Source: Desulfotignum sp. (GTDB lineage Bacteria > Desulfobacterota > Desulfobacteria > Desulfobacterales > Desulfobacteraceae). From it: a stretch of 64,000 bases of DNA. This document shows positions 1,898 through 22,430 of the stretch, one piece after another. Within the stretch, counting starts at the first letter, position 1. Each line of letters opens with the position of its first letter. A model generated the notes under the pieces. The model made no database searches and had not been told where the DNA came from. It was given only the letters and a program-made list of their open reading frames with translations. The position numbers were made by a program, and so were the translations under genes. Location: the NCBI GenBank assembly GCA_021737695.1, contig JAIPDL010000002.1:1-64000 (forward strand), read 5' to 3'.

Positions 1898-2905
1898 ATG
1901 AATAAAATGATAGCCGCAAACTTCCACTACATTAAAAAGGATTTCTCGACTCCCTACCCCAGCATTTTCGGCCGGACGCCCGAACAGTTCAGACATCAGT
2001 TGGAATCTCTGGCCTCAATAGGAACATTCATCAGCCAAGATGAGATAAAAGATCACCTGGTATATGGAAAAAGGATACCGGAAAAGGCATTTCTGATTAC
2101 TTTCGACGATGGGCTCAAGGAACAATACGAGCTGGCAGTCCCCATTTTGAAACAAATGGGAATACCAGCCCTTTTCTTTGTCAACACCCTGCCTTTGAAA
2201 AAGCCCTATATATTAAATGTCCACAAAATCCATCTCATTCGATCAGTCAGGCCCACGCAGGAATTGAATGCTTTGTTAAAAAAAACACTTGCAACAGACA
2301 GAGTCACAGTTTCCCAGGAACAACTGTCCAACTGCGCTGCTGCCACATACAGATACGATCAAAAAGATCAAAGAGAATTGAAATATCTTCTCAATTTTCT
2401 GTTGACCGTTGATCAACGTGAAAAATACACCAATGATTTATTTAATCAAATTTTTCAAAATCAGGAAGCAGCTATCCACAAAGACCTTTACATGACTTCT
2501 GAACAGATAAAACACCTTCACAGGGATGGTATGCTCGGCTGTCACGGGCACAGACATCATCCACTGGGGAGACTTGATGCCCAGAGCTGTATAGCAGACG
2601 TGACCATTTCCAAGACATATCTTGAAAATCTAGCAGGGGGCAAAGTTTATGCATTTTGTTATCCATACGGCACTTACGATGCTGTAAACGGTGCTGACAC
2701 CATCGTCAGAAACACCGGATTTTTATTTGCCTTTACAATGGAACGTGCCGTAAACGATAATTATCGGCTCCCCTTTTTATTCTCCCGGTTTGACACCAAT
2801 GATTTGCCTGGAGGCAAATTGTTCAACCAGAATCCAGCTACCTTATTCGATGATCTCCCCTTCCGTAAATGGATGACACCCCTAATCAGGAAAAGAGAGC
2901 TATGA
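1898..2905 (+). CDS. Polysaccharide deacetylase (NodB-like)
   Basis: FLITFDDGLKEQYE, HGHRHHPLGRL and FCYPYGTYD motifs typical of carbohydrate esterase 4. Confidence 0.85.
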   Translation: MNKMIAANFHYIKKDFSTPYPSIFGRTPEQFRHQLESLASIGTFISQDEIKDHLVYGKRIPEKAFLITFDDGLKEQYELAVPILKQMGIPALFFVNTLPLKKPYILNVHKIHLIRSVRPTQELNALLKKTLATDRVTVSQEQLSNCAAATYRYDQKDQRELKYLLNFLLTVDQREKYTNDLFNQIFQNQEAAIHKDLYMTSEQIKHLHRDGMLGCHGHRHHPLGRLDAQSCIADVTISKTYLENLAGGKVYAFCYPYGTYDAVNGADTIVRNTGFLFAFTMERAVNDNYRLPFLFSRFDTNDLPGGKLFNQNPATLFDDLPFRKWMTPLIRKREL

Positions 2906-3714
2906 AAAAAAAACCCGTATTTATCGGTGGATTGATGAAATCCGGAACCAGTCTGATACGTTCCCTGATAGGAAATCATTCGAATATTTTCGGAGGCTTG
3001 GAAACCTGGTGGTTTTCTGAAGATTTCCAAAATGATTATAAACTGTTGGACAGCAAGACAGCGCAAAAGCTACAAACGCTCTATGGGGTAAACGAAAAAG
3101 TATATGCCGAACTGGTTCTGAAATCTGAACATCACCTTAGTTTTCTGAACCTTTTTTTGCTATACAATGCCACCAGAGAAGGCAAAATCAGGTGGGTCGA
3201 AAAAACACCAGACAATATCTTTCATCTGGACCAGCTAAATAATTTTTGGGATAATAATTATGTGTTTATTTATATGATGCGTGATCCATTTGATACATTT
3301 GCCAGTTGGAAAAAAAACACATCCCATTCTTTGGACTTGTTTGAAAAAAAAACACATGACACTGTTGAGATCCTTTCATCCGATGACTTCTCAAAATCAG
3401 AAAACCATGTGATCATCACCTATGAAGACCTGATTTTACGAACAAAAGACGTCATGAAAAAAGTGATCACCTTCATAGGAGAGTCCTGGGAGGATGGTAT
3501 AGAAATGAATAAGAAGGATCGAACAGAGTATAATCTGGTAAAAAAATTTGCGAATAAGAACAGTACCACCCTTGAATCATTAAGCAAACCCATTTTCACC
3601 TCATCCATCCACCAGTACGAAGAAATTCTGAATCAAAAAGAGATCGAAAAAATCAAATGGTTTGCCAAAGATTACATAAAAATATTTCAGGCAGCCTTAT
3701 TGAGTGAAGCATAA
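2902..3714 (+). CDS. Sulfotransferase family protein
   Basis: PAPS-binding loop-like FIGGLMKSGTSLIRSLIGNH; YMMRDPFDTFASW 3'-phosphate motif. ATG at 2902 preferred over the upstream ORF start. Confidence 0.8.
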   Translation: MKKKPVFIGGLMKSGTSLIRSLIGNHSNIFGGLETWWFSEDFQNDYKLLDSKTAQKLQTLYGVNEKVYAELVLKSEHHLSFLNLFLLYNATREGKIRWVEKTPDNIFHLDQLNNFWDNNYVFIYMMRDPFDTFASWKKNTSHSLDLFEKKTHDTVEILSSDDFSKSENHVIITYEDLILRTKDVMKKVITFIGESWEDGIEMNKKDRTEYNLVKKFANKNSTTLESLSKPIFTSSIHQYEEILNQKEIEKIKWFAKDYIKIFQAALLSEA

Positions 3715-8922: not shown

Positions 8923-9930
8923 ATGAAAAAAACAACGGTAATCGCAGAAATCGGACAGGCCCATGACGGCAGCCTTGGTATCCTGCACTCCTATATTGAT
9001 GCCCTTGCGGAAACCGGTGTGGATGCTGTCAAATTCCAGACCCATATTGCCGAGGCGGAGAGTTCCTGCCATGAACCCTTCAGGGTCAACTTTTCATATG
9101 AAGATCAAACCCGTTTCGAATACTGGAAACGAATGGAGTTCACCCCCGAACAATGGCAGGAAATAAAAACGCATTGCGAAGATAAAAGACTGCTTTTTTT
9201 AAGCTCCCCCTTTTCAAATGCAGCTGTTGATCTGCTTGAAAGCATTAATACAAACCTCTACAAGATCGGTTCAGGAGAGATTTCCAATCTGTTGATGCTT
9301 GAAAAAATAGCCAGAACCGGAAAACCCGTTATCATGTCCAGCGGTATGAGTAATTTCAAAGACCTGGACCGGGCTATTTCTTTTTTGGTGCCTTTTCAGA
9401 ATCAGGTATCTATTCTTCAATGTACTTCCAAATACCCCACTGCCCCGGAGGACATAGGGCTCAACCTCATTGGCAAACTGAAAAAACGCTATGGTTTGCC
9501 TACGGGGCTGTCCGATCATTCCGGCACTGTTTACCCCAGTCTCAGCGCTGTTACATTAGGAGCAGAACTGATCGAAGTCCACGCAGTATTCGATAGACGG
9601 ATGTTCGGACCCGATGCCAAGGCATCCCTTACTATTGATGAAATTGCAGACCTTGTAAAAGGTATCCGGTATACGGAAATCATGAGAGACGCTCCTGTTG
9701 AAAAGGATGACACGGCTGCCTACACAAATCTGAAACAGATTTTTGAAAAATCCCTGGCGGTCAACAAACCGCTTACTGCCGGCCATCGTTTGAAAATTGA
9801 GGACCTTGAAGGGAAAAAACCTAAAGGATATGGAATGGAAGCCAGCGAATATGCCAACGTAATCGGCAAAAGACTGAAAAAAGATAAAAGTCAGTGGGCG
9901 TTTCTGAAAAAGGAAGATATTGATGACTAA
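8923..9930 (+). CDS. neuB: N-acetylneuraminate synthase family protein (NeuB-like, C-terminal SAF domain)
   Basis: IAEIGQAHDGSL, VDAVKFQTH, YKIGSGE, SSGMS, SDHSGT; C-terminal SAF-like region. Confidence 0.88.
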   Translation: MKKTTVIAEIGQAHDGSLGILHSYIDALAETGVDAVKFQTHIAEAESSCHEPFRVNFSYEDQTRFEYWKRMEFTPEQWQEIKTHCEDKRLLFLSSPFSNAAVDLLESINTNLYKIGSGEISNLLMLEKIARTGKPVIMSSGMSNFKDLDRAISFLVPFQNQVSILQCTSKYPTAPEDIGLNLIGKLKKRYGLPTGLSDHSGTVYPSLSAVTLGAELIEVHAVFDRRMFGPDAKASLTIDEIADLVKGIRYTEIMRDAPVEKDDTAAYTNLKQIFEKSLAVNKPLTAGHRLKIEDLEGKKPKGYGMEASEYANVIGKRLKKDKSQWAFLKKEDIDD

Positions 9931-11065
9931 AAAAATATGTATCGTGGTGGCAAGCCGGGCCAATTATGGACGGGTAAAATATTTGATGAAAGCCATAAAA
10001 GCCCATCCCGATCTGTCACTTCAGATCATTGTAGGTGCCTCCACCCTGCTGGAGCGTTTTGGAAAAGCAGTGGAGGTCATTAAACAGGACGGTTTTAAAC
10101 CGGATCGTTCAATTCATTATGTAATTGAGGGGGAGAATCTGGTGACCCAGGCCAAGTCAACCGGTATGGGTATTGTGGAATTGTCCACGGCTTTTCAAGA
10201 TCTTGAACCGGACATGGTGGTGACCGTGGCAGACCGGTTCGAAACCATGGCAACAGCCATTGCCGCCTCATATCTCAACATTCCTCTGATCCATCTACAG
10301 GGAGGCGAAATCAGCGGAAATATTGATGACAGGGTTAGGCATGCCATCACCAAACTGGCTGACTATCATTTTGTCGCCACCCGGTTATCCCGGGAACGGG
10401 TCATCAGTATGGGAGAATCGCCAGAGCGGGTTTACAATTTCGGCTGTCCTGCCATGGATATTCTGACCAATGAAAATCTATCCATTTCCAATGACACCAT
10501 GCCGACGACACCAAGAGGCGTGGGCAAACCCGTGAATTGGGAAAGACCCTATATCCTGATGCTTCAACACCCAGTAACCACCAGTTACGGACAGGGATTT
10601 GCCCAGATTAATGAAACCCTGGAAGCATTGAAGAGCTTTTCCAATCTCCAGAAAGTCGTACTTTGGCCCAACCCGGATGCTGGCTCAGATGAGATATCCA
10701 AAGGAATCAGGCAGTTCAGGGAAAAAAATTCCAAAGATATCAACTTCAGTTTTTTTATAAATTTCTCTCCTGAAAACTATGCAAGGGTACTTAACAATGC
10801 AGCCTGCGCTGTAGGCAATTCTTCCTCCTTTCTTCGGGAGGGGGCATTTTTGGGGGTTCCTGCCGTGATCGTGGGTGACCGGCAGAGGAACCGGGAACAC
10901 GGCCTTAACATCTGCTTTGCAGATTACGATGCCGCCTGTATCGCTAAAAAGATTCAAGAGCAAATGACAATCGGAAGATATCCACAAGACCACACCTTTG
11001 GCAACGGGCAGGCCGGTCAGCAGATTGCAGATGCTTTGGCAGTTATTGACATCAAATTGAAATAA
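9923..11065 (+). CDS. neuC: UDP-N-acetylglucosamine 2-epimerase, hydrolysing (NeuC-like)
   Basis: VASRANYGRVKYLM, DRFETMATAIAASYLNIPLIHLQGGE, GNSSSFLREGAFLGVPAV; ATG at 9923 overlaps the end of neuB. Confidence 0.85.
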   Translation: MTKKICIVVASRANYGRVKYLMKAIKAHPDLSLQIIVGASTLLERFGKAVEVIKQDGFKPDRSIHYVIEGENLVTQAKSTGMGIVELSTAFQDLEPDMVVTVADRFETMATAIAASYLNIPLIHLQGGEISGNIDDRVRHAITKLADYHFVATRLSRERVISMGESPERVYNFGCPAMDILTNENLSISNDTMPTTPRGVGKPVNWERPYILMLQHPVTTSYGQGFAQINETLEALKSFSNLQKVVLWPNPDAGSDEISKGIRQFREKNSKDINFSFFINFSPENYARVLNNAACAVGNSSSFLREGAFLGVPAVIVGDRQRNREHGLNICFADYDAACIAKKIQEQMTIGRYPQDHTFGNGQAGQQIADALAVIDIKLK

Positions 11066-11079
11066 GAGGTCATGATTTT

Positions 11080-11775
11080 ATGAAAATTGTCGCTCTTGTT
11101 CCAGCCAGGTCTGGATCAAAAGGGTTTCCCCATAAGAACGTTGCCAGATTGGGAAGAAAGTCTCTGATTGAACTGGCTGTAAAAGTGGGGCTGGCTTGTG
11201 ACTCAGTCCAATCCGTGTACATCAGTACAGACAGCATGACATATGAGACCCTTGCCATCCAGGCAGGCGCACAATCCCTGGGGCTCAGGCCCCGGGACCT
11301 TGCTTCGGATACGGCCAAAAGTGTCGATGTGGCACTGGATTTCTTGAAACGGCTGGCGGAACCGGCAGATTGTCTGGTGTTGCTTCAGCCGACTTCCCCC
11401 ATGAGACATCCGGAAGATATTTCACAGATGATTGAAATCCTGAAAAATCAGAAAGCGGATGCGGTGGTTTCTGTTGAAAAACTTGAAGAACCCCACCCGA
11501 ACAAACTGAAAAAAATCACTTCTGATGGATTCATCGCCCCATTTCTGGAGCATACATCCTCAGAAGTTCCACGACAGTTTCTTCCTGAGGTATTTAAACT
11601 AAATGGGGCTCTATATTTAATCCGAACAGATGTTCTGGTTTCTGCCAGGACTTTTTTACCCCAAAAAACCCTGCCTTTTCTGATGAAAGGAACCATCAAC
11701 ATAGATTCTGAACAGGACTACCAAATCATACAGGGGCTGCTGAAAACAAACAACATCCAAATTTACGGAGTTTGA
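11080..11775 (+). CDS. neuA: Acylneuraminate cytidylyltransferase (NeuA-like)
   Basis: ALVPARSGSKGFPHKNVARLGRKSLIELA, YISTDS, LLQPTSPMR. Confidence 0.88.
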   Translation: MKIVALVPARSGSKGFPHKNVARLGRKSLIELAVKVGLACDSVQSVYISTDSMTYETLAIQAGAQSLGLRPRDLASDTAKSVDVALDFLKRLAEPADCLVLLQPTSPMRHPEDISQMIEILKNQKADAVVSVEKLEEPHPNKLKKITSDGFIAPFLEHTSSEVPRQFLPEVFKLNGALYLIRTDVLVSARTFLPQKTLPFLMKGTINIDSEQDYQIIQGLLKTNNIQIYGV

Positions 11776-12783: not shown

Positions 12784-13629
12784 ATGGATCAGATACGGGT
12801 CATATTTATCCTGGGAACCGGCCACTGCGGTTCGACACTCCTGGATCTGCTGCTGGGATCCCATTCAAAAATGCTTGGAATCGGCGAAGTAGAACGTATG
12901 GAACAGACCCCCAAATGCACCTGTGGCTATGCCCTCAGGCATTGTAATTTCTGGTCAGAACTATACCTGGAATCATTTTTGAGAAGTCTACGGCTCTTCC
13001 GAAAACCCTTGGATTTTATTTTTGGAAACCAGAATTACCTCACCCGGCGTGGAAAGCATTCCTGGAAACCTCTTAAGGACAGACAGCAATTCATTAAAGA
13101 CAACCTGCTATTTTACAAAACAATTTGTAATAAGAGCGGCAAAGAAATAATTGTCGATTCCTCAAAAAATATCGACCGGGCAGAACTTTTGGCTGCGGAA
13201 GAAGCCATGGATGTCTTTCTTGTCCACATTGTCAGGGATGGCCGGGCCGTTACATGGTCCTACATGAAAAAATACAACAAAGCCCTGTTCTACGCATATT
13301 CATGGCTGACGTATTATATCAAAATAACCCTTTTAAAAAAAAGGACAACTGCTGGCTATATCCGTGTAGAATATGAAGATCTGGTCAAAAAACCCGAACT
13401 TGAACTTAAAAGAATATTAAACGCTCTGGGATATGAATTTGAACCCAGCATGATGGAGTTTAGATCGCAAAATAATCACCAGGTGGGTGGGAATGATATG
13501 AGGTTTCATAAAACGGTTGAAATACGCGAAGACAGGGACTGGATTGAACGAATGCCTCTCAGGTATAAGATCTTGTTCAAATTCTTTGCTTTTTTAAAAA
13601 AATCGAGATATTCGGACGGCAAACGATGA
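12784..13629 (+). CDS. Sulfotransferase family protein
   Basis: ILGTGHCGSTLLDLLLGSH and VHIVRDGRAVTWSYMKKY. Confidence 0.8.
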   Translation: MDQIRVIFILGTGHCGSTLLDLLLGSHSKMLGIGEVERMEQTPKCTCGYALRHCNFWSELYLESFLRSLRLFRKPLDFIFGNQNYLTRRGKHSWKPLKDRQQFIKDNLLFYKTICNKSGKEIIVDSSKNIDRAELLAAEEAMDVFLVHIVRDGRAVTWSYMKKYNKALFYAYSWLTYYIKITLLKKRTTAGYIRVEYEDLVKKPELELKRILNALGYEFEPSMMEFRSQNNHQVGGNDMRFHKTVEIREDRDWIERMPLRYKILFKFFAFLKKSRYSDGKR

Positions 13630-14960: not shown

Positions 14961-16019
14961 ATGCAAAAGATCTTCACCCCAAAAAAAATAAAGATATCTG
15001 ATCCTTTCTTCATAGTCGGCAACTCCCGAAGCGGGACGACTTTACTTTCAAGGATTTTGAAAAATAACCCCGCCATCCATGTGCTCAAAGAAACCCATTT
15101 TTTTGAAGAATATTTCGCCCAGATATCGGCTTGTGAACAATTGGATCATCACCATTTGTATAAAATGGTCAATCAGATGATAACCGTCCAGCGCAAAGAT
15201 TATTATCGCAAATCTGAATACCAAGAATATCCGGAACAGGCCGATAAAATTCTGGCAGAATTTTATCAGGCAAACAATAAGCGCTTTCAGGTCCTGATCA
15301 AAATTTTTTTTGCAGATGAAGCCAAAAGATTGGGGAAAAATTTGGTGGGAGACCAGACACCTCGGCATGTCTTCTACGCTGATGAAATCTTAACCATGTA
15401 TCCCGGGGCTAAGATCATTCATTTAGTCCGGGACCCAAGAGCGGTTCTCTATTCCCAGAAAAAAAAATGGGCCTCTGGCCTACAGAGGGGTCAGCCTCTT
15501 TTTGAGGTAATCCGCACTTTTATCAATTATCATCCTGTCACCATGTCTCTTTTATGGTGTAAAGCAATCAATGCAGGAAGAACTGCGGAAAAACGACATG
15601 GAACAAAAAAGATCAGGACACTACTATTTGAAGAATTTGTGAAAGAGCCCAAATTTCATGTCAGTAAGATTTGTGAATTTCTGGGAGAGTCCTTTCATCC
15701 AGGAATGCTGGACGTGACTGTTGAATTCTCTGCCACTCGCTCTCAAGAAGGGCATAGGGGAATAAGCCAGGAGGTCACTTATCAATGGAAAAAAGGCCTG
15801 AATCCAGCAGAGGTGTTTTTGTGTGAAAAAATTGCCGGGCAGTTGATGACTGAAATGAAATATCCCTTATCAGGGAACAGGCCGGATTTATTCCACTTGG
15901 GACTTTATGTGGTCTGGTTACCCCTTCATCTCGGGATTGCTTTTGTAATGAATCTCGGTCGCATGGGAAATCCCATCAAATATATATCCAAAAGATTTTT
16001 TCAAGAAAAATGCCGATAG
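14961..16019 (+). CDS. Sulfotransferase family protein
   Basis: FFIVGNSRSGTTLLSRILKNNP and KIIHLVRDPRAVLYSQKKKW. Confidence 0.82.
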   Translation: MQKIFTPKKIKISDPFFIVGNSRSGTTLLSRILKNNPAIHVLKETHFFEEYFAQISACEQLDHHHLYKMVNQMITVQRKDYYRKSEYQEYPEQADKILAEFYQANNKRFQVLIKIFFADEAKRLGKNLVGDQTPRHVFYADEILTMYPGAKIIHLVRDPRAVLYSQKKKWASGLQRGQPLFEVIRTFINYHPVTMSLLWCKAINAGRTAEKRHGTKKIRTLLFEEFVKEPKFHVSKICEFLGESFHPGMLDVTVEFSATRSQEGHRGISQEVTYQWKKGLNPAEVFLCEKIAGQLMTEMKYPLSGNRPDLFHLGLYVVWLPLHLGIAFVMNLGRMGNPIKYISKRFFQEKCR

Positions 16020-17232: not shown

Positions 17233-18510
17233 ATGAGGATTTTGATTGCCAATTACCGGTATTTTCTTTCAGGCGGCCCTGAGCGGTATATGTTCAATGC
17301 GATAAGGGCCCTTGAAAATAACGACCATGAAATCATACCGTTTTCAGTGACCTATAAAGCCAATAAGACCAGCCCTTATGACGGTTACTTTGTCCCGCCA
17401 TTAGGTACCGGCGATGAGGTCTATTTTAAACAGCAAAAAATGACCTATAGGACACTGATCAGGACCCTGTCAAGACTGTTCTATTCCAAAGAAGTGGAAC
17501 ATGCAGTGACCAGGCTGATAAACGAGACCAGTCCCGATGTGGCTTATGTACTACACTACCTGAAAAAAATTTCCCCCTCCCTTCTGGTAGCTCTCAAAAA
17601 AAAAAATGTGCCCATACTTGTCCGTCTGTCAGATTATGCCATGGTCTGCCCACAGAATCACTGCATCAGAAAAAACAGACCATGCACCTTGTGTATCCAC
17701 GGTGATCTTATACCCAGCATTCGCTACAGCTGCGTTAAAAACAGCCGGCCGGTATCTGTCATCAACGCCCTGGCCACCTTGTTTCACCGACATATGAGAT
17801 ATTTTGACCTGATTGACACATTTATTACCACCAACCGGTTTATGTACGATCTGATGCGGGAAGGGGGCTGGCCTGACCACAAGCTCATCTGCATTCCAAC
17901 CTTTACTGACACCCTGGTTTTTCGACCTCCCAAAGGCAACCTGAAGTCAGATTATATCTGCTATGCAGGCCGCCTTGATGAAATAAAGGGAATGGAAATA
18001 CTCTTGAGATCTTATGCTTTGATGAAGCATCGTCAATCAGGATTACAGCTCCGAATTGCGGGAACCGGATCACCCGGGTTTATCAGAAAAATGAAAAGCC
18101 TCGCCGAAACACTGTCTATCGAAAAAGATGTGCGGTTTGAAGGCAGGCTTGATATCCCTGAGCTCTCCCAACTTCTGAGACATGCCCGCCTGACGGTTGT
18201 TCCCTCTCTCTGGTTTGAAAATCTCCCCAATGCCATCCTTGAAAGCTTTGCCTGCGGCACCCCGGTCATTGCCTCGAATCTCGGTTCACTTCCCATGGCA
18301 GTTAAAACTGGTCATACCGGGGCGCTTTTCACTCCTGGAGACATTCAAGACCTGGCCGAAAAAACAGATTACTATCTGGATCATCCCGGATTGTTGGAAG
18401 AAATGGGAAAACAGGCACGATCGGAGGCCCTGACCCACTATTCCTCCGAAGCCCATATCACAAATCTGGAAAAGGCAATGAACAAGCTGTTATCATCTCA
18501 AAGAACATGA
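17233..18510 (+). CDS. Glycosyltransferase family 4 protein
   Basis: FLSGGPERYMFN, YAGRLDEIKGMEILLRSY, FENLPNAILESFACGTPVIASNLGSLP. Confidence 0.87.
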   Translation: MRILIANYRYFLSGGPERYMFNAIRALENNDHEIIPFSVTYKANKTSPYDGYFVPPLGTGDEVYFKQQKMTYRTLIRTLSRLFYSKEVEHAVTRLINETSPDVAYVLHYLKKISPSLLVALKKKNVPILVRLSDYAMVCPQNHCIRKNRPCTLCIHGDLIPSIRYSCVKNSRPVSVINALATLFHRHMRYFDLIDTFITTNRFMYDLMREGGWPDHKLICIPTFTDTLVFRPPKGNLKSDYICYAGRLDEIKGMEILLRSYALMKHRQSGLQLRIAGTGSPGFIRKMKSLAETLSIEKDVRFEGRLDIPELSQLLRHARLTVVPSLWFENLPNAILESFACGTPVIASNLGSLPMAVKTGHTGALFTPGDIQDLAEKTDYYLDHPGLLEEMGKQARSEALTHYSSEAHITNLEKAMNKLLSSQRT

Positions 18511-18567
18511 ATCGATCCACCTCTACATGCCGCTGTCGTTTCGGTCATTATAACAGGAATGCAGAAA

Positions 18568-19668
18568 ATGAAAATTTTTGTTACCGGTACCCGGGGGGTG
18601 CCTGATATCCCAGGCGGTGTGGAAAAACACTGCCAGGAACTATATCCGAGAATTGCGGGTAAGGGGCATCAAGTGGTCATCGCCACCCGCAGCCCATATG
18701 TATCAACGCGCTGTAATTACTGGAATGGTATCCGGCTCGTTCATCTTTACGCACCGGCGTTTAAAAGTTTCGAGGCCATCATTCACACACTGCTTGCGGT
18801 GATCAAGGCGAGACAGATCCGATCGGATATTCTGCATATCCACGCCGTTGGCCCAAGCCTGTTGGTGCCGTTTGCCAAATTTTTGGGTCTGCGTGTGGTA
18901 ATGACCAACCATGGTCCTGACTATGACCGCCTCAAATGGAAACTACCGGCCCGATTGATGCTAAAAATAGGGGAATATCTGGGCGGGAAATTCTCTGACG
19001 CTGTTATTGCCATATCTCCGGTGATTCAACAGATCATCAGAGCCAGATGCAATAGAAATGCATATCTTATCCTCAACGGTGTCACCCAGCCCCGCCCAAA
19101 CACCGGGACCTACCACCTGGACCGATTCGGGATCTCTCCGGGAAATTACATATTCACAGCTGCGAGATTTGTGCCTGAAAAAGGTATTGATCTTCTTATC
19201 CAGGCCTTTAAATCCCTGAAGTTGGGCATCAAACTTGTGATTGCAGGAGATGCGGACCATGAAACTGAATACAGCAAATCACTGAAACTAACAATTGATG
19301 ACGACGACACCATTATTCGAACCGGGTACGTAACAGGAGAGCCTTTAGATCAATTGTTTTCCCATGCGAGATTGTTTGTCCTGTCCTCTTATCACGAAGG
19401 GCTTCCCATCGCTCTATTGGAAGCCCTGAGTTACGGCTCTTCGGTCCTGGTATCAGATATTCCGGCAAATTTGGCGGTGAATCTTCCAAAATCACGATAT
19501 TTCAAGAGTGGCAATTACCAAGATCTGGTAACCGGATTGGCCCGGCTTATTAAAGAACCAATTACACAGGCTGAAAAAAACAGAATTAGTCGCATGATCC
19601 TAAAACAATATGACTGGAATAAAATTGCAGAACAAACCATCCGGGTTTATGAACGCACACTGAATTAA
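18568..19668 (+). CDS. Glycosyltransferase family 4 protein
   Basis: GTRGVPDIPGGVEKHCQELYPRI, AARFVPEKGIDLLIQAF, SSYHEGLPIALLEALSYGSSVLVSDIPAN. Confidence 0.87.
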   Translation: MKIFVTGTRGVPDIPGGVEKHCQELYPRIAGKGHQVVIATRSPYVSTRCNYWNGIRLVHLYAPAFKSFEAIIHTLLAVIKARQIRSDILHIHAVGPSLLVPFAKFLGLRVVMTNHGPDYDRLKWKLPARLMLKIGEYLGGKFSDAVIAISPVIQQIIRARCNRNAYLILNGVTQPRPNTGTYHLDRFGISPGNYIFTAARFVPEKGIDLLIQAFKSLKLGIKLVIAGDADHETEYSKSLKLTIDDDDTIIRTGYVTGEPLDQLFSHARLFVLSSYHEGLPIALLEALSYGSSVLVSDIPANLAVNLPKSRYFKSGNYQDLVTGLARLIKEPITQAEKNRISRMILKQYDWNKIAEQTIRVYERTLN

Positions 19669-19690: not shown

Positions 19691-21457
19691 ATGAATCCAG
19701 AATCGTTTCCCACAGATGTATCGATTATCACAACTTATCGATGTTGTATGAAATGTCAGATGTGCAGCATATGGAAATATCCCTCTGATATTCTCAAGGA
19801 GATCAAGGCCAGAGAGCTGGAGATACTGCCGCCCCTGAAATTCATTAATATTACGGGTGGTGAACCGTTTGTCCGCAATGATCTGGCAGATATCATCGAG
19901 GTATGTTTTTCAAAATCTCCTCGGGTTGTCATTTCAACAGCCGGTTACCATGTGGACGACATTCTGGCACTGGCAGACAAGTTCCCCCGGATCGGGGTCC
20001 GGGTCAGTCTCGAAGGTTTATCTACCATCAATGACTGGTTAAGGGGACGTGACGGTGGATTTGACAGGGGCATGAGGACCCTACTTGGGCTGCGGCAGAT
20101 GGGGGTGAAGGATATCGGCATCGCCACCACCGTTTCTCAGAAAAATTGCAATGATCTTATTCCAATCTATCAGTTGACCAGGAACTGGGGTATGGATTTT
20201 GCCACTGCCACTTATCACAATTCTTTTTATTTTCATAAAAATGACAATTTTCTGGACAACCATGATGAAGTATCGCATAGCTTTTTCGACCTCGCAGAAC
20301 TGCTTCTAAAAGAAAACAGACCCAAAGACTGGTTCCGGGCATTTTTCAATATCGGTCTGATCAACTATGTTCATGGGAACAAACGACTGCTGCCATGCGA
20401 GGCCGGATCGGTGAATTTTTTCATCGAACCTTACGGTGATGTTTATCCCTGTAATGGTCTCGAGGAAAGGTACTGGAAAGAACCCATGGGCAATATCCGG
20501 GATGTGGAATCTTTTGAAGAATTATGGCAGGGAGAGCAGGCGCAGAAAGTGCGTGAGAAAGTCAGGACCTGCCCTAAAAACTGCTGGATGGTTGGCACAG
20601 CCGCGCCGGTAATGAAAAAGTATTTCAGGCATCCATTCAAATGGGTTCTCAAACATAAATTTAACAGCCTTCTGGGAAAAAAAATTGACCGGACCTGTTT
20701 GCCGGATCAATTCGAGGTGGGGCAGAGCTCAAGGCAAGGAGACCTGCGCGGCGGGAGTCAGTTTCCTGTTGAATTTGAAGAAAACTGTTTTCCTGAAAGC
20801 ACAAATGGCCGGCTTATGTCCCGCGTAAAAGAAGTCAGACATCTAACTCAGGATAGTTTCATGTTGAGTCTCGAGAAAGGAAATTTTAATTTTCAACCTG
20901 GCCAGAATGTGAGCATCGGTCCTCACATGAAGTATTACAAGAACAGAGACTATACTTTTTGTTCATCTCCGGAAGACCCTGATTTAGATTTTCTGATTAA
21001 AAAGGTCAAAAACGGAGAGATCAGCCTCTATCTTTCAGGTTTGAAACCTGGAGACAAAGTAGATCTGGTAGGTCCCTATGGTGATTTTTTCCTTGATAAA
21101 ACTCCCGGACGGAATCATCTCTTCATTGCCACAGGTGTCGGTATCGGACCGTTCCTTTCATTTATCAAAACCTATCCCGGTATTGAATATACCCTTATCC
21201 ACGGTATTCGTGACTCTGAAGATCTCTGCCTGGCCCAAAACATTCCCCAGGATCGTTACTTCAGCTGCATGACCCGGGGAACCAGTGGTGACTTTCAGGG
21301 ACGGGTAACGGATTTCCTGAAAAATTACACAATCAAAGATGGGACAGCTTGCTACTTATGCGGTAATCCATACATGCTCAAACAGGTTCGTGAAATTTTG
21401 ATTGAAAAAAGCGTTCCAGAAACCGCTATATACATGGAGCCTTATTACACGTATTGA
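19691..21457 (+). CDS. Radical SAM protein (with auxiliary-cluster-like cysteines) fused to a ferredoxin-NAD(P)H reductase-like module
   Basis: N-terminal CCMKCQMC (CxxxCxxC), NITGGEPF; CEAG...CNGL...CPKNC; C-terminal RDYTFCSSP, LFIATGVGIGPFLSFI and YLCGNPYMLKQVREIL...YMEPYY. One continuous frame; ATG 19691 has an upstream AAGG. Confidence 0.88.
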   Translation: MNPESFPTDVSIITTYRCCMKCQMCSIWKYPSDILKEIKARELEILPPLKFINITGGEPFVRNDLADIIEVCFSKSPRVVISTAGYHVDDILALADKFPRIGVRVSLEGLSTINDWLRGRDGGFDRGMRTLLGLRQMGVKDIGIATTVSQKNCNDLIPIYQLTRNWGMDFATATYHNSFYFHKNDNFLDNHDEVSHSFFDLAELLLKENRPKDWFRAFFNIGLINYVHGNKRLLPCEAGSVNFFIEPYGDVYPCNGLEERYWKEPMGNIRDVESFEELWQGEQAQKVREKVRTCPKNCWMVGTAAPVMKKYFRHPFKWVLKHKFNSLLGKKIDRTCLPDQFEVGQSSRQGDLRGGSQFPVEFEENCFPESTNGRLMSRVKEVRHLTQDSFMLSLEKGNFNFQPGQNVSIGPHMKYYKNRDYTFCSSPEDPDLDFLIKKVKNGEISLYLSGLKPGDKVDLVGPYGDFFLDKTPGRNHLFIATGVGIGPFLSFIKTYPGIEYTLIHGIRDSEDLCLAQNIPQDRYFSCMTRGTSGDFQGRVTDFLKNYTIKDGTACYLCGNPYMLKQVREILIEKSVPETAIYMEPYYTY

Positions 21458-21560: not shown

Positions 21561-22430
21561 ATGATAACACTTAAAAATATTCTAAAGTATAAACTTAAAC
21601 GCAATTATCAAAGACTTAGGGTCTTCAGAGACTTGATCAATATTTATAACAACAAAAAAATCATATATTTTGTTTCTTTCCCCAAATCTGGAAGAACATG
21701 GGTAAGATATTTTCTAAATTATTACTTTTTTATTTGCAATCCCTTATCTGTAACCAGTAGAAATGATATGAGTTATTATAAAAATATCCCCATCATTATC
21801 TATAAACACGGAAAATATAAAAATTTAAATGTAACGAAAATAAAAAATGATATCCAATGCATGAAAAATAAACAGGTGATCTTTATGATTAGAGACCCAA
21901 GGGATACTTTCATTTCATATTATTTCCAGTTGACCAAACGATACGATCCGGCTAAACGAATCTATAAAGCTTTTGATCTTCCCTACATTGATTGGGAAAA
22001 AATTACTATTGGAGAACTGATGGTTCATCCATATTTCGGAATCAACTGGATTATTCAGCATATGAATCTATGGTTTGACGCACTAAATTCATTTAAAAGG
22101 TCTCATTTGGTCCAATATGAAAAAATACAATTAAACCCTAAAAAAGAATTTAGCGATATTATAAATTTTATTACACCGATGAAAATCAATCAGATTGCAA
22201 TAGAAAAGGCAATAATCGAAACTCACTTTAACAAAATGAAAGCAAATGAAAAAAACAAGCTTTACAGCGAAGATCAGCTCATCGCCCAAAACTGTAAAGA
22301 TGAAGACTCATTTAAAGTTCGAAGGGGAAAGGTTGGAGGATACAAAGACTATCTCAGTGAGGATGAAATTAATTATATAGACACCGCTATGGATGGACTT
22401 CATCCGGACCTGAAAAAAAGATATTCCTGA
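21561..22430 (+). CDS. Sulfotransferase domain protein
   Basis: IIYFVSFPKSGRTWVRYFLNYYF (PAPS 5'-phosphosulfate loop) and FMIRDPRDTFISYYF (3'-phosphate motif). Confidence 0.88.
   Translation: MITLKNILKYKLKRNYQRLRVFRDLINIYNNKKIIYFVSFPKSGRTWVRYFLNYYFFICNPLSVTSRNDMSYYKNIPIIIYKHGKYKNLNVTKIKNDIQCMKNKQVIFMIRDPRDTFISYYFQLTKRYDPAKRIYKAFDLPYIDWEKITIGELMVHPYFGINWIIQHMNLWFDALNSFKRSHLVQYEKIQLNPKKEFSDIINFITPMKINQIAIEKAIIETHFNKMKANEKNKLYSEDQLIAQNCKDEDSFKVRRGKVGGYKDYLSEDEINYIDTAMDGLHPDLKKRYS

Follow-up and report, generated by a model that had tools for sequence, protein, structure and literature searches.

Fpr is one half of the classical reducing system of radical SAM enzymes. In E. coli this system consists of NADPH and two separate proteins, FPR and FldA, with flavodoxin standing between the reductase and the radical SAM enzyme. 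The electron donor that radical SAM enzymes use in vivo is still called elusive (PMC11994313, PMC10470005). For PapB, NADPH and FPR without flavodoxin gave ~45% turnover in 180 min, and FMN with NADPH sufficed for full turnover (PMC10470005), which makes direct reduction by a flavin plausible. A flavin electron-transfer domain in the same chain as a radical SAM enzyme is also known: this is the arrangement of TYW1 (PMC9186531), the eukaryotic 4-demethylwyosine synthase, which has an N-terminal FMN flavodoxin-like domain and acts on tRNA. Another parallel is offered by the reductive dehalogenases BhbA and JtRdhA, low-potential metalloenzymes of a kind in which a C-terminal NAD(P)H-flavin reductase is present in some members and absent from others; catabolic reductive dehalogenases with a fused phthalate-dioxygenase-reductase domain are self-sufficient (PMC10463259). 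Their reductase uses FMN and its own [2Fe-2S] cluster, and their catalytic part is a corrinoid rather than a radical SAM enzyme.

In the window, the whole 64,000-nucleotide stretch of a Desulfotignum sp. contig that was analysed, one gene joins a radical SAM enzyme to a C-terminal reductase of the ferredoxin-NADP reductase (FNR) type. A 588-codon open frame without internal stop, at 19691-21457 (+), encodes 588 aa. AAAGG lies at suitable spacing 5' of its ATG at 19691, and a gap of 22 bases separates it from the end of the upstream glycosyltransferase gene (19668). The Pfam domains follow one another in the order Radical_SAM, SPASM, FAD_binding_6 and NAD_binding_1, all above curated cut-offs, and the gene is present in one copy in its own genome (4.2 Mb, 158 contigs). 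An earlier note on this DNA had proposed one uninterrupted radical SAM and FNR frame, and this is what we found: four Pfam domains in 588 aa, in a frame that recurs in two other genomes. It had also seen no plant-type [2Fe-2S] or FMN domain, in agreement with the Pfam search, which returned neither a [2Fe-2S] ferredoxin nor an FMN/flavodoxin domain in the fusion protein. The parts of the gene are:

19691..21457, + strand: fusion gene, radical SAM/Twitch-FNR, 588 aa (translation, Pfam, homologues)
19724..20119, + strand: Radical_SAM core, residues 12-143 (Pfam PF04055, E 4e-12)
19742..19765, + strand: CxxxCxxC motif, C18/C22/C25 (sequence; all three Cys invariant in 20 homologs)
20396..20584, + strand: SPASM/Twitch-like auxiliary cluster region, residues 236-298, with C236/C254/C294/C298 (PF13186, E 1e-10)
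20585..20800, + strand: C-terminal tail and junction, residues 299-370 (comparison with stand-alone homologs)
20855..21088, + strand: FAD-binding domain with RDYT motif, residues 389-466 (PF00970, E 9e-10; model; Foldseek)
21122..21391, + strand: NAD(P)-binding domain (GVGIGPF ... CGNPYM), residues 478-567 (PF00175, E 2e-6)

Unlike TYW1, the fusion has a C-terminal FAD/NAD(P)H reductase, is missing an FMN/flavodoxin domain (Pfam) and lies in a polysaccharide locus. Since TYW1 already joins a flavin domain to a radical SAM enzyme, a flavin-domain fusion as such is known (PMC9186531).

The radical SAM half carries the superfamily motifs CCMKCQMC (C18/C22/C25) and GGEPF. Across 20 homologs, C18/C22/C25, GGEP (G56-P59), C236, C254, C294 and C298 are all invariant. 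The motifs listed in the earlier note (CxxxCxxC, GGEPF, four further cysteines and the FAD and NAD(P) motifs) are thus all present in the sequence. Although PF13186 matches, just four further cysteines are invariant, rather than the seven of a SPASM domain; four conserved cysteines after the core are what a Twitch domain has, and the Twitch region of BtrN is matched. Having four and not seven extra cysteines, this half is predicted to hold a single Twitch-like auxiliary cluster rather than a full SPASM arrangement. Among the best PDB profile matches to this half are SkfB, cytosylglucuronate decarboxylase and BtrN (Twitch part). BtrN and SkfB, which resemble the fusion in their auxiliary cluster region (Twitch/SPASM), differ from it in having no reductase domain, and act on 2-deoxy-scyllo-inosamine and a peptide, respectively. 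The substrates of cytosylglucuronate decarboxylase and BtrN are sugar-like, which may hint at a similar role for the radical SAM half, short of an assignment. Scans of viral sequences for a deeper radical SAM alignment yielded relatives that were weak or none at all.

The reductase half contains RDYTFCSS, GPYGDF, GVGIGPF, CGNPYM and a terminal E-PYY. The characteristic elements of the FNR superfamily, an FAD barrel with RxY[TS], the NAD-binding GxGxxP and a CG motif, are invariant in all three fusions, and the FNR halves of the other two (52-55% identical to that of the window) retain RDY[TS], GPYG.F, GVG..PF and YxCGN. By sequence, the best PDB match was E. coli flavodoxin reductase. The same protein came first in Foldseek (1fdr, E 5e-16, TM 0.75 by target), so that this half is closest to the FPR fold. 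In the AlphaFold model of the fusion (overall mean pLDDT 61, pTM 0.42), only the FNR half was confident, with blocks mostly at pLDDT 80-93, while the radical SAM half was poor. The fusions have C526, C554, C557 and C336 in common. C557 belongs to the ordinary CG motif and C526 also occurs in non-fused FNRs, so we do not claim an extra iron-sulfur cluster in this half.

NCBIfam gave sub-cut-off matches only, and both assignments were rejected. For the C-terminal half, the best match was BenC (NF040810), with 102 bits against a cut-off of 430, confined to profile positions 104-330; NADH reductases of the BenC/MmoC type have an N-terminal [2Fe-2S] ferredoxin, which is missing from the fusion. For the N-terminal half, the mycofactocin maturase MftC (TIGR03962) reached 79.6 bits against a cut-off of 265, and no mycofactocin genes were found among the neighbours examined.

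Two further full-length fusions were obtained in a class-wide search, with 63% (L007) and 61% (L008) identity, in genomes that belong to the same order but to two other families; a scan of named records gave these two proteins again, in a Desulfosudis oleivorans MAG (L051) and a Desulfobacteraceae MAG (L052). The junction is identical in the three fusions, which come from three independent assemblies. This rules out an assembly or frameshift artefact, and with it the sequencing error joining two genes that the earlier note had named as a way to refute the fusion. The note had likewise allowed for a common, well-described architecture. Instead, the fusion is rare, occurring in 3 genomes among 774 genome-searches (family, class and phylum, all within the phylum, with single genomes possibly counted more than once), and searches of the open-access literature gave no description of a radical SAM enzyme fused to an FNR. 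No further fusion was recovered from the family, class and phylum searches, plasmids, phages or viral contigs, and a pattern-limited scan across 85,462 species genomes returned the two known relatives and no other fusion, all of which speaks against a widespread architecture. Other long frames of 573-628 aa with an FNR match (in L128, L129 and L131) proved to be NqrF-like, with a [2Fe-2S] domain, rather than fusions to a radical SAM enzyme.

The radical SAM half occurs alone in about 50 other genomes at 38-63% identity (class, family and phylum searches). The nearest solo enzymes have the tail ..DVGQDxRQGDLR and end within a few residues of it; fusions and solo enzymes share this tail through QGDLR, where the fusions continue into the reductase. 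Just past the tail lies C336 (window 20696-20698), which all three fusions keep and none of the solo enzymes compared has. A tree of 49 sequences places the fusions in a single clade (ultrafast bootstrap 100, SH-aLRT 98) within the solo enzymes. As these end at the junction, the reductase was probably appended once, and a single C-terminal gain followed by spread or loss would be the simplest history. No homolog was found at E 1e-60 in 12 other genomes of the window's genus, which fits a mobile polysaccharide locus.

In the window, the fusion gene stands last in a series of polysaccharide genes, among them those for two flippases, methyltransferases and GT4 glycosyltransferases; Wzz and export genes lie on the opposite strand. 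Two of these genes recur beside its relatives:

18559..19668, + strand: GT4/DUF1972 glycosyltransferase, directly upstream, conserved neighbour (Pfam, locus comparison)
17233..18510, + strand: second GT4 glycosyltransferase, frequent neighbour (Pfam, locus comparison)

Genes for NeuB, a UDP-GlcNAc 2-epimerase and a cytidylyltransferase at 8923-11772 indicate a putative pathway for a nonulosonic (sialic-like) acid. Four sulfotransferase genes (2869-3711, 12784-13629, 14961-16019 and 21561-22430) in one locus suggest a heavily sulfated glycan. We compared 13 genomic settings of fused or solo radical SAM genes, and in most of them the radical SAM gene adjoins homologs of the two GT4 genes that lie upstream of the fusion gene in the window; a Segatella copri plasmid is among the settings with such neighbours. 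The link to a polysaccharide locus made in the earlier note is therefore backed by a conserved neighbourhood. The same GT4 neighbours for fused and solo genes make a role in glycan tailoring likely, and the context points to glycan assembly rather than a peptide natural product.

Other genes were also observed at these loci. An exosortase gene (Exosortase_EpsH and DUF3485; L041:5166-6737) lies directly 3' of a solo radical SAM gene, and in L042, L044, L045 and L046 a gene of similar size is found near the corresponding place. In a Desulfobacterota genome, the GT4 gene adjoining the radical SAM gene is followed by an NTP_transf_5 nucleotidyltransferase gene (L040:6154-7353); the same place on the Segatella plasmid is held by an annotated nucleotidyltransferase family protein (L049:14453-15601).

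We searched 297 genomes of the phylum for stand-alone relatives of the FNR half. The best match, L113 (E 5e-33), has its gene overlapping that of an unrelated radical SAM enzyme:

L113, 1480-2166, - strand: FNR, upstream member of the overlapping pair
L113, 585-1568, - strand: Rv1681/MoaA-like radical SAM enzyme

A search of the order around the L113 genome (G491) found this second radical SAM family in 20 genomes. In 11 loci, a full FNR gene lies directly upstream of the Rv1681/MoaA-like gene and overlaps its start; overlapping pairs occur at L113, L146-L148, L151-L155 and L157-L159. One more locus had a match to the FNR tail only, and five (L149, L156, L160-L162) had no FNR gene within the flank covered. 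As in the fusion, a ferredoxin-less FNR is here tied to a radical SAM enzyme, but the genes are separate, the FNR is upstream and the radical SAM family is different. The overlapping genes possibly encode a dedicated reductase pair. Sister FNRs adjoin a cobalamin adenosyltransferase in six loci (L114, L115, L116, L118, L122 and L123) and an MtrH-like gene in one (L117), which suggests a family of corrinoid-reducing reductases. Such corrinoid partners, like radical SAM enzymes, need low-potential electrons. In the FNR tree, the fusions and the overlapping pairs form separate clades, and the pairing of FNRs with radical SAM enzymes thus probably arose at least twice. Tentatively, and with slightly less than even confidence, we suggest that ferredoxin-less FNRs form an unrecognised class of dedicated direct donors for radical SAM (and corrinoid) enzymes, that they were recruited on two or more occasions, once by fusion to the C-terminus in polysaccharide loci and once as a gene upstream of its partner and overlapping it, and that the fusion may be the first single-chain radical SAM enzyme to reduce itself with NAD(P)H.

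For the fusion itself, we propose, with a probability of roughly 0.6, that FAD relays electrons of NAD(P)H to a [4Fe-4S] cluster within one chain and that these drive the modification of a glycan precursor, a reading drawn from sequence and from analogy with the systems above. Compared with E. coli FPR/FldA, the proposed NADPH-flavin-cluster route would run in one chain with no flavodoxin. The FAD of the C-terminal FNR would accept hydride from NAD(P)H and give single electrons directly to the iron-sulfur clusters of the same chain, bypassing flavodoxin and ferredoxin. The point of entry may be either the Twitch auxiliary cluster or the SAM-bound [4Fe-4S] cluster itself. The reduced cluster would then cleave SAM to a 5'-deoxyadenosyl radical, which would modify a nucleotide sugar or lipid-linked sugar for the adjacent glycosyltransferases. 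This electron flow, which the earlier note had also suggested, is supported by the FNR genes overlapping another radical SAM family, by the FNRs beside corrinoid enzymes and by the flavodoxin-free activity of PapB, and the solo enzymes of the same clade in the same setting argue that the module supplies electrons and adds no catalytic step. As counterpoints, the fusion is rare, most homologs have no FNR, and flavodoxin-family matches in the genome represent other possible donors. Besides, FNRs usually pass electrons to ferredoxin or flavodoxin, and reduction of the SAM cluster by NAD(P)H runs uphill until SAM cleavage pulls it.

The FNR might, beyond priming the SAM cluster, give the second electron that completes a net-reductive sugar reaction, such as a radical dehydration whose product radical is then quenched, in which case the fusion would mark changed chemistry. 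AprD4 carries out C3 deoxygenation together with AprD3, a separate reductase that depends on NADPH (PMC5461906), and the Twitch region, resembling that of the cyclitol-acting BtrN, could relay electrons to the substrate. We nevertheless regard this as unlikely, since solo enzymes of the same clade, with 56-63% identity and in the same glycosyltransferase setting, have no FNR in the fetched context, which suggests the same reaction without the module. Moreover, AprD3-type partners reduce their substrate by hydride, whereas FNR modules transfer electrons. A little less probable again is a general ferredoxin or flavodoxin reductase tethered near the enzyme, with a soluble carrier then reducing the radical SAM cluster. 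The closest solved structures are indeed Fpr enzymes acting on flavodoxin or ferredoxin, and flavodoxin-family proteins are encoded in the genome, but tethering would bring little gain if electrons entered a common pool, and the overlapping FNR-radical SAM pairs as well as flavodoxin-free turnover (PMC10470005) favour direct transfer. The rarity of the fusion, with the FNR missing from most homologs, could also be taken as a sign of a functionless part, joined by chance read-through or during assembly. Three independent assemblies with the same junction in one clade refute an assembly error, and with FNR halves still 52-55% identical and their FAD and nucleotide motifs invariant, lack of function appears very improbable.

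With a donor encoded in the same chain, or in an overlapping gene, the partner of the radical SAM enzyme is named and the donor question becomes testable with one purified protein; the fusion thus offers a clean way into how these enzymes obtain their electrons. If self-reduction holds true, it would also provide a radical SAM biocatalyst for practical use, driven by NAD(P)H and independent of dithionite.

Finally, two records from human faeces labelled 'Bacteriophage sp.', MT836979.1:5176-6213 (H31) and MT836080.1:10110-11144 (H32), encode a solo radical SAM enzyme of 58-60% identity; they are possibly bacterial contigs filed as phage.
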